A stretch of 38,074 nucleotides of DNA from Candidatus Zambryskibacteria bacterium RIFOXYC1_FULL_39_10. Lineage in GTDB: Bacteria > Patescibacteriota > Minisyncoccia > Phycocordibacterales > WO2-35-19. The stretch is taken from NCBI GenBank assembly GCA_001824275.1, contig MHWW01000005.1, positions 31,174 through 69,247 of the forward strand, read 5' to 3'. Numbering within the stretch: the first letter of the stretch is position 1; each line of letters starts with the position of its first letter. Under the pieces are notes generated by a model, which was not told the origin of the DNA, did no database searches, and saw only the letters and a list, made by a program, of their open reading frames with translations. The translations under genes were made by a program, and so were the position numbers. Shown here one piece after another: positions 17,546-27,526 of the stretch.

Positions 17546-19288
17546 ATGAAAAATAATATTGAATTAGTTAGGCATTCCCTGTCGCATCTTATGAGTATGG
17601 CGGTATCTGAACTTTACCCAACCGTCGGTTTGGGAGTTGGACCAGTTATTGATAACGGTTTTTATCAAGATTATGACCTGCCTGAGGTAATCAATCCCGA
17701 GCTTTTACCAAAATTGGAAAAAAGAATGCGCGAGCTTATCAATAAGGACATCAAATTTGAACAGCATGATATGGATTTTGATGAAGCCTTGAAACTTTAC
17801 ATGGATGACCCTTACAAAACCGAACTTATAAATGATTTGAAAGAAGCGGGTGAAAAAAAGGTAAGTTTTTATAAATCTGGTGATTTTGACAATCTTTGCC
17901 TCGGTCCACACGTTAAATCTACTAAAGAAATTGATCCGCAAGCATTCAAACTTACTCACATTGCCGGAGCATATTGGCGCGGCAACGAAAAAAACAAAAT
18001 GCTCACTCGTATTTACGGGCTGGCTTTTGAATCAAAAGAAAAACTGGATGAATATTTAGTGCAAAGAGAAGAGGCTGAGAAGAGGGATCACAAAAAACTT
18101 GGTAAAGAAATGAGTTTATTTACTATTTCCGAATTAGTGGGTAAGGGATTGCCAATGTATTTACCAAAAGGAAACATAATAAGAACTGAATTGGATAATT
18201 TCATCAGAGCCGAAAAAGAAAAATTAGGTTATTCATTTGTTACCATTCCTCACATTGCTAGGAAAGAACTTTATATTCGCAGTGGTCACCTAGGAAAATA
18301 TGACGCCATGATGCCGATTATGACTGACAATAATGGTGAAGAATTTGTGCTGAAGGCTATGAATTGTCCTCACCATTTTGAAATCTATAACGCCGAACCG
18401 CATAGTTATCGCGATTTACCATTGCGAATCGCAGAAAATACTACTGTTTATAGAAATGAAAAGAGTGGAGAATTATCAGGTCTGCTCAGAGTAAAGGGTT
18501 TGTGCCAAGATGATACACACCACATCATACGACAAGATCAAATTGAATCAGAAATTGAAATGATTTTGGGTCTGATGCAAAAAGTTTATAGTGTATTTGG
18601 ATTTAATGACTACAAGGTTGAAATTTCAATTCGTGATCCAAAAAATAAAGAGAAATATTTTGGAGTCGATGACGTTTGGCAAAAAGCCGAGGAAATATTG
18701 GTTGAACAGGTTAAAAAATGGAATGTACCATATAGTATTGAAGAAGGTGAAGCGGCTTTTTACGGACCGAAAATTGATATCAAAGTGAACGATTCTATCG
18801 GCAGAGAGTGGCAGCTGACAACTATCCAGCTCGACTTCAATCAGCCAGAAAATTTTGAAATGGATTATACAGGTGAAGATGGCAAAAAACACCGTGTGGT
18901 TGTTTTGCATGTCGCCATTTTTGGTTCGTTTGAAAGATTTTTTGGAATACTCATTGAACACTATGCAGGCAACTTCCCTCTTTGGCTATCTCCTGTGCAG
19001 GTTAAAGTGATTCCAGTGCGCGATTCACACAATAAATATGCACAGGAAGTTTATGATTTATTAAAAGAAGCAGGTATTAGAGCTGTAGTTGATCTAGAAG
19101 ATGAAAACCTAGGTAAAAAAGTTCGCGCCACTAAAAATGAAAAAATCCCTTATTGGATTGTGGTTGGCGACAAGGAAGTTGAATCTAAAGAATTTACTCT
19201 CGAATCACGAGAAGGTAATAAACTAGAATCACTCTCTTCCCAAAAACTCCTTGATCTCCTCCAAAAACAAATTAAGGAAAAGAAATAA
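17546..19288 (+). CDS. thrS: Threonyl-tRNA synthetase, lacking N-terminal TGS domain
   Basis: HSLSHLM second-additional-domain start, class II core MNCPHHFEIY, GEAAFYGPKIDIK, anticodon-binding C-terminus. Confidence 0.95.
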   Translation: MKNNIELVRHSLSHLMSMAVSELYPTVGLGVGPVIDNGFYQDYDLPEVINPELLPKLEKRMRELINKDIKFEQHDMDFDEALKLYMDDPYKTELINDLKEAGEKKVSFYKSGDFDNLCLGPHVKSTKEIDPQAFKLTHIAGAYWRGNEKNKMLTRIYGLAFESKEKLDEYLVQREEAEKRDHKKLGKEMSLFTISELVGKGLPMYLPKGNIIRTELDNFIRAEKEKLGYSFVTIPHIARKELYIRSGHLGKYDAMMPIMTDNNGEEFVLKAMNCPHHFEIYNAEPHSYRDLPLRIAENTTVYRNEKSGELSGLLRVKGLCQDDTHHIIRQDQIESEIEMILGLMQKVYSVFGFNDYKVEISIRDPKNKEKYFGVDDVWQKAEEILVEQVKKWNVPYSIEEGEAAFYGPKIDIKVNDSIGREWQLTTIQLDFNQPENFEMDYTGEDGKKHRVVVLHVAIFGSFERFFGILIEHYAGNFPLWLSPVQVKVIPVRDSHNKYAQEVYDLLKEAGIRAVVDLEDENLGKKVRATKNEKIPYWIVVGDKEVESKEFTLESREGNKLESLSSQKLLDLLQKQIKEKK

Positions 19289-20180: not shown

Positions 20181-22253
20181 TTAAATATCAATAGTGGCGA
20201 GTTTGGCGTTAGACTGGATAAATGATTTGCGGGATGGGACGTCGGTGCCCATGAGGACATCGAAGATGCGGTCGGCTTCTTGAGTATCTTCGACAGTCAC
20301 TTGTTTCAATATACGGCGCTTAGGATCCATAGTGGTCTCCCAAAGCTCTTCTGCATTCATTTCTCCCAAACCTTTGTATCTTTGAACTGAGATTTTTGGA
20401 GTTTTGGATTTGGTTGCTGATTTTTCGTCTTCCACTGTTTCATTTTCTGAATCTGCATTTTCGATCGGTTCGTCGGTTTCCACTATATCTTCTGAACTAA
20501 CATCCTTGCCGAGCACTTTTGCTTTTTCGTCATCACTATAAGCGTAATGGACTTCTTTACCTTTTTTAATTTTGTAAAGTGGTGGTTGAGCAATATAAAT
20601 AAATCCCCCATCAATAATTGGTCTGAAGTATCGATAAAGCAAAGTCAAAATAAGGGTGCGGATGTGAGCACCGTCAACATCGGCATCAGTCGCGATAATT
20701 ATTTTATGATATCTTAGTTTTTCTAAATCAAAAGTATCACCTATCGCCGTTCCGAGTGCTACCACCAAATTTTTGATTTGTTCAGAGCCGAGCATTCTAT
20801 CAAGTCTTGCTCTTTCAATGTTTAAAATTTTACCTCGGAGTGGTAAGATGGCCTGAGTCTTTCTATCCCTCCCGGTTTTAGCTGTGCCACCAGCTGAATC
20901 TCCCTCCACAATGAAAAGCTCAGACTCGGCCGCTGATTTGCTTTGACAGTCTGCAAGTTTACCGGGCAAAGTCATACCTTCCAAAACTCCTTTTCGAAGT
21001 ATTGAATCCTTGGCTGCCTTAGCCGCCTTTCTGGCTCGTAGGGCTAAAATAACTTTATTTATAATAGATCTAGCATCATCTGGGTTTTCTTCTAGAAATG
21101 AACTGAAAGCGTCTCCAAAAATATTTTCTACCATTCCTCTAGCTTCAACTGAGCCAAGTTTTGCTTTAGTTTGTCCTTCAAATTGAATCTCTCGTAGTTT
21201 TACTGAAACAACTGCCGTCAATCCCTCCAAAATATCTTCACCAGTAAAGGCGTCATCACCATCTTTAATCAAATTATTTTTCTTACCATAACTGTTTAAA
21301 GTTCGAGTAAGCGCCGCCTTAAAACCAGTGATATGTGTTCCGCCTTCACTTTGGTAAATATTGTTGGCAAATGGCATTATGCGAGCCGTAATATCATCAA
21401 TATATTGAAGTGCCACTTCTACTCCTTCAAAATTTTCGTTGTATTTTTCTACATAAAAAATATTTTTATGAATTGGTTTTTGAGTATGATTATAAAACCG
21501 TATCAGAGAAACCAAACCACCATCAAAATAAAATGTCATTGACGGAGCTTCAATACCCAGATCTCTCAAATAAAATGTCTCAGTATCTTTAATTTTTTGA
21601 CTAACCTCTCTCAGATCAAGCACTGAAATTTTAAGACCTTTAACCAAATAGGCTTGTTGACGCATATGGTGTACTACTCTTTCAAAATCAAAAACCACAC
21701 CCTCTTTAAATATTTCTTCGTCAGGTTCAAAAGTAATTATGGTGCCATGGAGTTTGGATGAACCAACTTTTTTGACTGCAGCCTTTTTTTTGCCCTTTGA
21801 ATATTCCTGCATAAAAGCACCGCCATCGCGATGAATCTCAGCACGCATATAAACCGAAAGGGCGTTCACCACAGATGCGCCCACACCATGCAAACCGCCT
21901 GACACCTTGTAGCCTTCACCTCCGAATTTGCCTCCGGCATGGAGAGTGGTCATAATTGTCTCAAGAGCGGAGACTTTGGTCTGTTTGTGCATATCAACCG
22001 GTATTCCACGGCCATTATCCACAACCCTTACTTTGTTGCCCGGCAAAAGCGCGACCTCAATATCATTACAAAAACCGCCCATCGCTTCATCGCGGGAGTT
22101 GTCAAAAATTTCGGATATTAAATGATGCAGACCATCAGGCCCTGTGGTACCAATATACATTCCAGGCCTCTTTCTTACCGGCTCTAGACCCTCGAGAACG
22201 GTAATCGAATCAGCTCCATAACTACTCTTTTTGTCTTTGCTTTCCTTAGTCAT
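20181..22253 (-). CDS. gyrB: DNA gyrase / topoisomerase IV subunit B
   Basis: 690 aa; VLEGLEPVRKRPGMYIG, EGDSAGG, QRYKGLGEMNAEELWETTMDP. Confidence 0.95.
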   Translation of the reverse strand: MTKESKDKKSSYGADSITVLEGLEPVRKRPGMYIGTTGPDGLHHLISEIFDNSRDEAMGGFCNDIEVALLPGNKVRVVDNGRGIPVDMHKQTKVSALETIMTTLHAGGKFGGEGYKVSGGLHGVGASVVNALSVYMRAEIHRDGGAFMQEYSKGKKKAAVKKVGSSKLHGTIITFEPDEEIFKEGVVFDFERVVHHMRQQAYLVKGLKISVLDLREVSQKIKDTETFYLRDLGIEAPSMTFYFDGGLVSLIRFYNHTQKPIHKNIFYVEKYNENFEGVEVALQYIDDITARIMPFANNIYQSEGGTHITGFKAALTRTLNSYGKKNNLIKDGDDAFTGEDILEGLTAVVSVKLREIQFEGQTKAKLGSVEARGMVENIFGDAFSSFLEENPDDARSIINKVILALRARKAAKAAKDSILRKGVLEGMTLPGKLADCQSKSAAESELFIVEGDSAGGTAKTGRDRKTQAILPLRGKILNIERARLDRMLGSEQIKNLVVALGTAIGDTFDLEKLRYHKIIIATDADVDGAHIRTLILTLLYRYFRPIIDGGFIYIAQPPLYKIKKGKEVHYAYSDDEKAKVLGKDVSSEDIVETDEPIENADSENETVEDEKSATKSKTPKISVQRYKGLGEMNAEELWETTMDPKRRILKQVTVEDTQEADRIFDVLMGTDVPSRKSFIQSNAKLATIDI

Positions 22254-22327: not shown

Positions 22328-22948
22328 TTACTGAATAATTTCCTTTATTAAATTCTCACTTTTTCTCAAGTCCTCTCTGCCGTTTGGCACAATTACCACA
22401 AACCTTTCCTCATCGATATTTGCCACTCTTCTAAACCCGACAATTTTTGAAATATTTTCCAGATTTTTTAGATACTCTTTTACAACTCCACCATATCTTT
22501 TTGTTGCATGAAGTATTTCATCATTTCCTAAATAAAATACTACATGATCGACTCCTTCGGGCACTTTGGTGCCGGGAAGATATTCAACTGTCTCAAAGCG
22601 AATCTTGCCAATACCCGTATTGGAAAAAACTAAATCACCAAATTTTAATTCTTCTTTCGTTATCGGAGTTCCGTAAACATATTTATCTATAGAAAGTGAG
22701 GGCATCCAAACTCCCGCTTGAGTATAAAGATAACTTATAAGCGAGGAGCAACTAAAAGCATTTGGCGCGTCAAAACGCATACTTGAAGGGTTTTTATATA
22801 CCGCGTTTAAACAAAGAGGGATAGTTTCTTTCAAAACATCTTCTACCTTAACCTTTATATATTCAAGACCTTTCTTTGAAATTGCCTCTTTTATTTTTTC
22901 AAATTCTTCTGTTGAAAATCCTATTTTGTATTGCCAATTTTGAGTCAT
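22328..22948 (-). CDS. NlpC/P60-like cell-wall hydrolase
   Basis: CSSLISYLYTQAGVWMP, FGDLVFSNTG, DHVVFYLGNDEILHATK. Confidence 0.75.
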   Translation of the reverse strand: MTQNWQYKIGFSTEEFEKIKEAISKKGLEYIKVKVEDVLKETIPLCLNAVYKNPSSMRFDAPNAFSCSSLISYLYTQAGVWMPSLSIDKYVYGTPITKEELKFGDLVFSNTGIGKIRFETVEYLPGTKVPEGVDHVVFYLGNDEILHATKRYGGVVKEYLKNLENISKIVGFRRVANIDEERFVVIVPNGREDLRKSENLIKEIIQ

Positions 22949-22985
22949 TCTTGAATTTTAGCACGATTTTATTTAGAATGAATAT

Positions 22986-24128
22986 ATGAAAAATTATACA
23001 ATCCCAAACGATGATGAAAAAGCTTTGCTTCAGAGCCTCGAGAAAAGGCAAGATGCAGATGCTTTAAGGATGAAGCGCTACCTTGCTATGCCCGATCTTT
23101 CGCGTACTCCAGGTAGTCCCATTGCTGAGACGGTGGAACGCATTATAAAATACCCATTTTTTAAAAATTTGGACATAATGCAAACGCCAGAAATCGTGCC
23201 CGCAGATGTGAGTTTTGACCTTTTTGACTTCCCCGCAGATCATCCTGCTAGAAGTAAATCTGACACATATTATGTTGATGATGAAAATATTTTACGCACC
23301 CACACCACAGTTTGTTGGTATTACTATCTTGGGAACCTCGAAATTAGAGAACGTATTAAAAGAAATGAGCCAGTGGGTTGTTTCAGCTTCGGCAAGGTTT
23401 ATCGCAAAGATGAAATTGACCGTAATCATATGAATGTCTTTCATCAAATTGACGGCTGGTATTTGATTCCAAAGGAGGTAGGAGTGATGGGTCAAAAAGA
23501 TTTGGAAGAAGCTCTGGGCAACATTGCCACCGCAGTGTTTGGTCCAGATATAAAATACAGACTAAACAAAGACACATTCCCTTATACAGATCCTTCGCTG
23601 GAAATGGAAGTTGAGATTGAGGGTAAATGGGTTGAGGTGGTTGGTTGCGGCGTCGTAAAAGGTAGCGTTCTTGAAAAATTAGGAGTTGACTCCAGTAATT
23701 ATACCGGCTGGGCCTTTGGTTTTGGTCTAGAGCGACTGGCTATTGTCAGTATGTCTCTCCCAGATATTCGCCTACTTTGGTCAGATGATGAACGAGTTAA
23801 AAAACAATTAAAACTCGGCCAAAAATACAAAGAAGTAAGCAAATACCCTCAAATCACACGCGACATTTCTTTTTTGGTTGATAAGAGCTTCGTACCAAAT
23901 AACTATTTTGACTTAATCCGCGAAACAATTGGCGAAGAAATGATTGAAGAGGTTAAACTCATTGATAAATACGAAAATGAAGATAAATTTGGCAAGGATA
24001 ACGTAAGCTATGCCTATAGAATTATTTATCGCTCTCTTGAAAAAACTTTGATTGCCATCGATGTTGACCAAATGCACAAAAAACTTGAGCAAAAAACCGC
24101 AGAGACTTATGGGGCAAAAATTCGCTAA
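22986..24128 (+). CDS. pheS: Single-chain phenylalanyl-tRNA synthetase (PheS core + C-terminal FDX-ACB)
   Basis: GKVYRKDEIDRNHMNVFHQIDG, GWAFGFGLERLAI, then SKYPQITRDISFLVD..YAYRIIYRSLEKTLIAIDVDQMHKKL. Confidence 0.9.
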   Translation: MKNYTIPNDDEKALLQSLEKRQDADALRMKRYLAMPDLSRTPGSPIAETVERIIKYPFFKNLDIMQTPEIVPADVSFDLFDFPADHPARSKSDTYYVDDENILRTHTTVCWYYYLGNLEIRERIKRNEPVGCFSFGKVYRKDEIDRNHMNVFHQIDGWYLIPKEVGVMGQKDLEEALGNIATAVFGPDIKYRLNKDTFPYTDPSLEMEVEIEGKWVEVVGCGVVKGSVLEKLGVDSSNYTGWAFGFGLERLAIVSMSLPDIRLLWSDDERVKKQLKLGQKYKEVSKYPQITRDISFLVDKSFVPNNYFDLIRETIGEEMIEEVKLIDKYENEDKFGKDNVSYAYRIIYRSLEKTLIAIDVDQMHKKLEQKTAETYGAKIR

Positions 24129-24157: not shown

Positions 24158-25408
24158 ATGCATCTGATTTCGGAATCAATTACATATATTATTCTTTTTC
24201 TTGCTCTTTATGTGGAAGTATTTTTTCTAATTACATATTTTGAATTTAGAGATACCGACTTCGCTTCCAACTCCGCTAAAGATTCGCTCTACAAGAAAAC
24301 TACTAAATTACCGAGCGTATCTATTATTGTGCCTGTGTGGAATGAAGAAACCACAGTTCTAAAAACCATATTTTCTCTTTTGAAACTTAATTATCCGAAA
24401 GAGAAGCTCTCAATTTTTATAGTTGACGACGGTAGTACCGATAATACATGGAAGGTGATTCAGAGGTTTGCCAAAAACTCACAAATAAAGTTATTGCAAA
24501 AAGAAAATGGCGGCAAACACACTGCCCTAAATTATGCTCTTGAATTTGTTGATTCTGATTTGGTGGGCTGTTTAGATGCCGATTCATATGTCCATCCTGA
24601 GGCGTTAAAAAGAATAGTGGCAAAATTTGATGACAGTGAGATGATGGCCGTCACTCCATCAGTCAAAATATTTGAGCCAAAAGGGATACTTGGTCTTATT
24701 CAAAAAGCTGAGTATATATTTGGTATATTTCTACGAAAAGTTTTTTCATACTTGAATGCTCTATACATAACTCCTGGACCCTTTTCAATTTTCCGTCGTT
24801 CAGTTTTCAGACAGATTGGAGGTTATAAAAAAGCTCACAACACTGAAGATATGGAAATCGCGATGAGAATGCAAAAGAATAATATGAAGATTGGTAATGT
24901 CCACAATGCCTTTATTTACACCGTCGCTCCTACTAATTTATATGCACTGTATAAACAGAGACTTCGTTGGGTTTATGGCTTTCTTAAAAATGCCATTGAC
25001 TACCGAGGTATGTTTTTCAAACCTCAATATGGAAACCTTGGTATGGTAGTTTTGCCGGCCGCTGGATTCTCGGTTTTCTCAACAATGTATTTCTTTGGGA
25101 GTATGATTTTGAGCTGGATAAATTCGCTAATCAAAACAATTCAAGAGATTTCAACTGTTGGTTTAAATTTCAAAGGGTTTAACCTTGATTTATTTTATTT
25201 CAATACTGACATTATCGTCTTCATTTCATTTATTGCTGTTCTCGGAACACTTCTCATCATCGTTACTTCTAGAGGACTGGCCGAGGAGAAAAATGTTTTT
25301 GGTGTTGATAGCGTTCTTTTCTTAATGTTTTACACATTACTTGCTCCACTCTGGATGACCAAAGCTATTTATAACGTAGTATTTTCCCAAAAAACAAAAT
25401 GGAGATAG
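24158..25408 (+). CDS. Family 2 glycosyltransferase, membrane-bound
   Basis: VSIIVPVWNEE, FIVDDGSTDNT, GCLDADSYVHPEAL, ED, QRLRW plus TM helices. Confidence 0.92.
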   Translation: MHLISESITYIILFLALYVEVFFLITYFEFRDTDFASNSAKDSLYKKTTKLPSVSIIVPVWNEETTVLKTIFSLLKLNYPKEKLSIFIVDDGSTDNTWKVIQRFAKNSQIKLLQKENGGKHTALNYALEFVDSDLVGCLDADSYVHPEALKRIVAKFDDSEMMAVTPSVKIFEPKGILGLIQKAEYIFGIFLRKVFSYLNALYITPGPFSIFRRSVFRQIGGYKKAHNTEDMEIAMRMQKNNMKIGNVHNAFIYTVAPTNLYALYKQRLRWVYGFLKNAIDYRGMFFKPQYGNLGMVVLPAAGFSVFSTMYFFGSMILSWINSLIKTIQEISTVGLNFKGFNLDLFYFNTDIIVFISFIAVLGTLLIIVTSRGLAEEKNVFGVDSVLFLMFYTLLAPLWMTKAIYNVVFSQKTKWR

Positions 25409-26803: not shown

Positions 26804-27526
26804 ATGGATTGGAAAAAATATGCCTATACGTTTCTAATTACGGCTGTTATTTTTATAACAGCTATATATTTGAGTAATTATTTTAGCCAGAAGAAGATAA
26901 ACGAGATAAAGAACATTGAAAGCCGCATTGCTGTAGACATATTGGCCTCTGAGACTCAATTTTCGCTTCTCTCAGAGCTTTCCTGCCGAGATATAGGAAG
27001 TAGCTTCCTTTCTAAGGAATTGGCCACTCTGGGCGATAAATTGGCCTATACAGAGCAAAATCGTGGTTCTGACGACCCTGAAGTACTCAACCTAAAGAAA
27101 TACTATTCCTTACTCCAGATTAAGGACTTTTTGCTTATGCAAAAGATTAAAGACCGTTGCGGTTCAGTCCAAGCAAACAATGGGCTTTCTCTAATGTATT
27201 TCTATTCAAACGAGGGTGATTGTGAGGATTGCGAAAAAGAAGGCTATGTCTTGACCAAACTCCGAAGCGACTACCCAGAGCTCAGAGTATATTCATTTGA
27301 TTACAATTTAGACCTCTCTGCACTCCAGACTTTAGTTAGCGTTTACAATATTCAAAATAAACTCCCTGCGATCCTAATTAACGATAAAGTTTACTATGGT
27401 TTTAAATCTGTTGAAGATATGAAAGTTGCTCTTCCATCCCTAGTAGAACTTGATAAACAAAAAGCCAAGGCTGAGGCCGAAGCCGAAGCTCTCAAATCCA
27501 AACAAGCCACTTCTTCAGACCAATAA
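26804..27526 (+). CDS. Membrane-anchored thioredoxin-fold protein
   Basis: N-terminal TM; YFYSNEGDCEDCEKEGYVL CxxC and LPAILINDKVYYG. Confidence 0.7.
   Translation: MDWKKYAYTFLITAVIFITAIYLSNYFSQKKINEIKNIESRIAVDILASETQFSLLSELSCRDIGSSFLSKELATLGDKLAYTEQNRGSDDPEVLNLKKYYSLLQIKDFLLMQKIKDRCGSVQANNGLSLMYFYSNEGDCEDCEKEGYVLTKLRSDYPELRVYSFDYNLDLSALQTLVSVYNIQNKLPAILINDKVYYGFKSVEDMKVALPSLVELDKQKAKAEAEAEALKSKQATSSDQ

Follow-up and report, generated by a model that had tools for sequence, protein, structure and literature searches.

The genome of Candidatus Zambryskibacteria bacterium RIFOXYC1_FULL_39_10 very probably depends on a single-chain phenylalanyl-tRNA synthetase (PheRS) of the PheRS-M design as its sole PheRS, an enzyme without an editing domain whose gene displaced pheS-pheT in place and lies next to an NlpC-B5 remnant of the latter. 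The gene occupies positions 22986..24128 of the forward strand (380 aa, ATG start) in the 38,074-nucleotide stretch of DNA analysed here (the window). The evidence, read at the level of sequence, consists of the architecture of the protein, the absence of pheT, a clade-wide mutual exclusion with pheST, conserved residues, synteny and the remnant. In the proposed mechanism, the class II core would activate phenylalanine and the enzyme's own FDX-ACB domain would read G34 of tRNA-Phe(GAA). The gene would have spread horizontally in Parcubacteria, displacing pheS-pheT beside gyrB about ten times or more, and the pheT displaced in the window lineage would have had an NlpC/P60 insert in its B5 domain, the NlpC-B5 piece surviving as 22328..22948. 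Three forms of PheRS are distinguished, of which the prokaryotic heterotetramer is described as conserved in all known species and the monomer as mitochondrial (PMC3275996). Many CPR PheT proteins were reported in 2017 to lack the B2 domain, in a paper that does not mention a single chain (PMC5370408). We found no paper describing a single-chain PheRS in bacteria, albeit most subscription journals lay outside the search, so that prior notice is possible.

A Pfam search of the 380-aa ORF returned the class II PheS catalytic core (PF01409, tRNA-synt_2d; residues 44-274, positions 23115..23807 of the forward strand, E 2.8e-54) and an FDX-ACB anticodon-binding domain (PF03147; residues 285-380, 23838..24125, same strand, E 2.9e-19), and nothing else. 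Bacterial PheS has a long N-terminal coiled coil; only 43 residues precede the core here and the protein therefore has none, just as the initial annotation had claimed in describing a PheS core fused directly to FDX-ACB. Both this architecture and the residues of the active site are kept in 99 full-length or near-full-length members of the clade, which excludes a chance origin of the ORF. A mere 37 bases (22949-22985) lie between the single-chain gene and the divergent remnant gene, with no AGGAGG ahead of the start, and the single-chain message is possibly leaderless. Promoter and terminator scans around the gene gave results at chance level.

A family search of the whole genome (744,429 bases, 25 contigs, 98% complete) located one PheS-type PF01409 locus and one FDX-ACB domain. 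No second PheS-type core, no second FDX-ACB and no B5 domain were found in it, nor was any pheT beyond the FDX-ACB of the single chain and a 121-aa free OB-fold ORF; a separate PheT with B3/4 and B5, the mark of a bacterial PheST, was likewise absent from this search. Another PF01409 match, on contig C19, was rejected as a second PheS, its translation reading as LysRS. A complete pheS/pheT pair elsewhere, which the initial annotation had named as the finding that would speak against it, was looked for across the genome and none was found. That pheT is missing merely from the assembly is unlikely, as the clade-wide pattern described below argues against it. The same genome encodes a free 107-aa tRNA_bind OB-fold protein (C11:50832-51050, L005), and the window contains a threonyl-tRNA synthetase ORF (17546-19288, forward strand) that seems, by eye, to begin at the editing domain, the N-terminal TGS domain that is normally present being absent.

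A tRNA-Phe(GAA) with G1-C72, A73 and G34-A35-A36 is present in the genome. Human mitochondrial PheRS (mtPheRS) reads C74, the 1-72 pair, A73 and G34 (PMC9976931), and the identities of this tRNA thus cover what the monomeric enzyme reads. The tRNA-Phe(GAA) gene at L041 (9719-9792, reverse strand) has no encoded CCA end and, judged by eye, apparently a G at position 59 in place of the U of E. coli. ARAGORN predicted a tmRNA at L052 (279-690, forward strand) with an unusually long tag (28 residues, ending YVRA), which may be a mis-call.

Among solved structures, the sequence closest to the single chain is that of human mtPheRS (E about 1e-56), with bacterial PheS ranking behind it. An AlphaFold model derived from 34 clade members (pLDDT 90) had its best PDB fold matches in human mtPheRS (5mgh/3cmq; TM 0.76 for 5mgh, rmsd 3.2) and a TM of 0.57 to the tRNA-bound open form 3tup, and the predicted fold is that of mtPheRS. 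Residues were numbered according to Thermus, with the numbering checked against PDB chains, and their conservation was counted over the 99 clade members. Those equivalent to R204 and R321 never vary (99/99), A314 is found in 99/99 and F258 in 98/99; the active-site residues in the window protein itself are R140, Q154, F198, Y200, A243 and R250. The class II arginines and Phe-pocket residues of a functional PheRS are thus present, and the single chain is probably catalytically active and monomeric. The residues reading G34 (D327, Y329, S341 and R380 in the window protein) have the equivalents D729 (99 of 99), S742 (99), R780 (98) and Y731 (Y in 95, F in 4). All four anticodon-G34 readers are conserved by this count, and the residue set predicts G34 reading of tRNA-Phe. 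The Phe pocket departs from that of canonical PheRS at S180 (T in 99/99), E220 (D or G in 99/99) and F260 (Y in 95/99), the corresponding window residues being T108, D156 and Y200. The B3/4 editing domain is absent from the single chain, and proofreading of Tyr-tRNA-Phe is probably weak or absent. One may speculate that the clade-specific pocket changes sharpen discrimination against tyrosine and so offset the missing B3/4 editing.

In a single scan, 84,980 species genomes yielded 130 relatives, the best 80 of which are 57-85% identical and carry, almost without exception, labels of Parcubacteria lineages. The view of the initial annotation that the enzyme sits in a bacterium is borne out by these CPR relatives, with the refinement that it is a trait of many Parcubacteria and not of one genome. 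In a sample of 286 genomes of the phylum, the single chain was present in 28, the B5 domain (indicating pheT) in 251 and both in none (Fisher p = 1e-32); the corresponding numbers for 108 genomes of the order were 22, 79 and 0 (Fisher p = 3e-17), both p values being nominal since the genomes are related and hence not independent. Seven families (f2, f3, f130, f139, f143, f151 and f163) each include single-chain as well as pheST genomes. No members of the clade were found on phages, plasmids or viral contigs, where only ordinary PheS and SrmL proteins appeared. A Nanoarchaeota-labelled contig carrying the gene (L120) was rejected as archaeal; it is probably mis-binned, its protein falling inside the Parcubacteria clade.

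Of the NCBIfam models, NF051887, SrmL, gave the window protein its highest score (248 bits); SrmL is a 'PheS-related mystery ligase' that resembles it in length and in joining the core and an FDX-ACB-like C-terminus in one chain. This top score is what would favor an SrmL-type enzyme acting on another substrate, with the real PheRS missing from the assembly; we regard such an explanation as highly improbable. The score falls below the SrmL cut-off of 300 bits. SrmL proteins have HPYT in place of the FPF/FPY loop seen in the window protein and lack most of the G34 readers, whereas the single chain keeps all of them. In the tree described below SrmL forms a separate clade (support 100/100). Moreover, all single-chain genomes lack pheT, and the account of a missing assembly part would need to hold in every one of them. 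On all three counts, score, motifs and tree, the window protein was judged not to be an SrmL. On the other hand, in three genomes (G297, G367 and G357; loci L277-L279) SrmL, at 349-390 bits and thus above the NCBI cut-off, is the only PheS-type protein; no B5 domain or pheT was reported in any of the three, and in G357 the SrmL gene adjoins gyrB, in the slot of pheST. This occurrence is new here, and on these sequence grounds SrmL is likely to be another kind of single-chain PheRS, in these three genomes if not elsewhere. A search of the literature returned no account of SrmL as an enzyme, the name occurring only as unrelated abbreviations. SrmL was also seen at 423 bits on a very large phage genome (uncultured phage LR745206, 634,780 bases; L169) and, annotated as hypothetical protein, on Azotobacter and Glutamicibacter plasmids (L167, L168).

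The relation to mtPheRS was assessed in an unrooted tree of 59 sequences, aligned over the core and FDX-ACB, with one mitochondrial sequence (human, taken from PDB alignments). The single chains, the PheST and the SrmL-type proteins each fall on one side of a fully supported branch. Human mtPheRS is long-branched, and a topology that unites it with the single chains is no worse (AU p = 0.505, for one mitochondrial sequence in an unrooted tree), so that the phylogeny proposed in the initial annotation, with human mtPheRS and CPR PheRS, neither groups nor separates the two. Common descent with mitochondrial PheRS is allowed by these data. The window protein scored 240 bits against TIGR00469, under the curated cut-off of 258 bits that no genome of the 286-genome phylum sample reached. 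Scoring below the cut-offs of both TIGR00469 and SrmL, it is not placed by the NCBIfam models. Of the 'mitochondrial-type' label of the initial annotation, the architecture, the absence of pheT and the closest sequence and fold stand, and kinship does not follow; the label is a description of design and not a proof of descent. Like human mtPheRS (FARS2; PheRS-M; TIGR00469), the window enzyme has a core fused to FDX-ACB, no coiled coil, no B1-B7 and no editing domain, and the same G34 readers where aligned, but for F in place of Y731 in the human protein. It differs in being a bacterium's sole PheRS, in scoring below the TIGR00469 cut-off and in its pocket (T108, D156 and Y200 versus S, E and F in human).

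With the heterotetrameric PheS and PheT of bacteria the single chain shares the catalytic core, the anticodon-binding fold and, in CPR genomes, a gyrB-linked locus; unlike them, it is one chain without B1-B7 and B3/4 editing, its core is only about 27-37% identical to PheS, and among the genomes sampled the two never occur together. A fusion within the lineage, joining CPR PheS to the FDX-ACB end of PheT with loss of the rest of PheT and independently of mitochondria, might be suggested by the graded reduction of pheST in close relatives. G169 (L170) and G230 (L172) have a PheS of 239-259 aa (about 255 aa at these loci) without the coiled coil and a PheT of 396-439 aa that retains B5, part of CLM and FDX-ACB and lacks B3/4. 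PheT ORFs of similar size occur in G311, G377 and G373. However, the mini-PheS of these relatives is about 50% identical to Anoxybacillus PheS, while the single-chain core stays at about 27-37% to bacterial and CPR PheS alike. In addition, CPR PheST groups with other bacteria in the tree, and a clade of single chains with CPR PheST is rejected (AU p = 0.013), so that the window protein is no recent fusion of the lineage's own genes. We accordingly hold a fusion inside the lineage to be quite improbable; one that took place in a far older ancestor, or beyond CPR, is possible.

In the window, a GT2 glycosyltransferase gene (24158..25408, forward strand) lies downstream of the single chain, in agreement with the neighbor named in the initial annotation, and is followed by a further conserved outer neighbor (26804..27526, forward strand); divergently upstream are the NlpC/P60 gene and then gyrB (20181..22253, reverse strand), a conserved neighbor of both pheST and the single chain in CPR bacteria. 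In two-gene CPR genomes gyrB comes after pheS-pheT (e.g. L173, L175, L179-L181, L183, L184 and L186-L189), and among some 100 other loci about 70 have it near the single chain, the short ones frequently stopping before gyrB is reached. The outer neighbors are likewise shared with the mini-pheST of relatives: the order is gyrB-pheT-pheS-GT2-26804 gene in G169 and gyrB-single chain-GT2-26804 gene in the window and its relatives. In a phylogeny of the GyrB proteins encoded beside them, single chain and pheST change places 13 times, 10 of these changes being forced by well-supported branches; since this phylogeny was built quickly, with SH-aLRT support, and gyrB itself may have moved, the number of switches is an estimate. 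The plain reading of these sequences is that the single chain has repeatedly displaced pheST in place beside gyrB, a pattern new here, and horizontal spread would be the probable cause of the distribution. At four single-chain loci (L064, L091, L151 and L160) a free OB-fold tRNA-binding ORF of 157-181 aa, resembling the N-terminal EMAP-like domain of PheT, lies upstream.

The NlpC/P60 gene (22328..22948, reverse strand, 206 aa) is very probably what is left of the displaced pheT. PheT proteins with an NlpC/P60 domain inside B5 occur in 26 of the 79 pheT genomes of the order, with ORFs of 750-840 aa (e.g. L183 and L199-L205, in G246, G138, G093, G221, G212, G020 and G118), and also outside it, in families f42 and f80; the insert always splits B5 at about position 34. 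No published description of such an insert was found in the literature searched. The window gene aligns end to end with the B5-NlpC-B5 segment of these PheT proteins, both B5 halves included, at 46% identity for G212 (L202, 46%), 42% for G246 and 35% for G221. Its NlpC/P60 domain spans residues 62-165 (22454..22765, reverse strand), with invariant Cys67 and His135, and its C-terminal B5 half residues 165-206 (22331..22456, reverse strand). With the insert cut out, the flanks scored 21.4 bits on the B5 profile, against 4.3 for the best of 200 shuffles, the cutting by joint alignment introducing a mild bias. The free genes of L110, L082, L147, L080 and L077 behaved like the window gene on this profile, and two unrelated NlpC genes scored below zero. 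Since the B5 match taken alone is weak (Pfam E 0.004), the assignment rests on the collinear alignment.

Bacteria commonly have NlpC/P60 genes, and the predicted structure folds as an NlpC/P60 hydrolase, its best Foldseek matches being NlpC/P60 hydrolases, mostly of the cell wall. The gene might thus be an ordinary wall hydrolase standing there by chance, of a kind once captured into the pheT of relatives from a free gene; this is improbable on several counts. It has both B5 flanks, meaningful only as parts of PheT, begins at a B5 half and shows no export signal by eye. A free NlpC-B5 gene adjoins the single chain in seven loci (the window, L110, L082, L080, L077, G195 and G369), occupying the pheT slot before gyrB, and in five of them (L082, L080, L077, G195 and G369) single chain, remnant and gyrB lie on one strand, i.e. 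in pheS-pheT-gyrB order. Family f143 includes both states, the NlpC-PheT in G299 and the single chain with the free gene in G369. We therefore read the gene at 22328..22948 as a leftover of pheT, a reading new here, and the earlier statement that the single chain has no pheT neighbor stands for an intact gene and fails for the other side, where the neighbor is pheT-derived.

This remnant may have a function of its own, given the invariant Cys67 and His135 and the predicted hydrolase fold. These two residues, and the retention of the piece at seven loci, at five of them immediately downstream of the single chain and on its strand, while the rest of PheT was lost, are the grounds for a more daring suggestion, to which we give little credence: that the NlpC-B5 piece is a working partner, a free cytoplasmic thiol hydrolase alongside the editing-less single chain, e.g. 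clearing mischarged tRNA. If true, this would add a new form of quality control for aminoacyl-tRNA, with the NlpC insert in the PheT of relatives as the fused version of the piece.

Overall, the enzyme is of a familiar kind, found where it was not expected in the tree of life, and the history of displacement behind it can be read with unusual clarity. A broad bacterial clade with a single chain as its only PheRS breaks the three-form scheme (PMC3275996), and is a natural system in which to ask how a free genome copes with the lack of PheRS editing. The repeated displacement in place lets one count how often an essential enzyme of two genes gave way to one encoded by a single gene, and the members of the clade add bacterial sequences to the question of where mitochondrial PheRS, whose origin is unexplained, came from.
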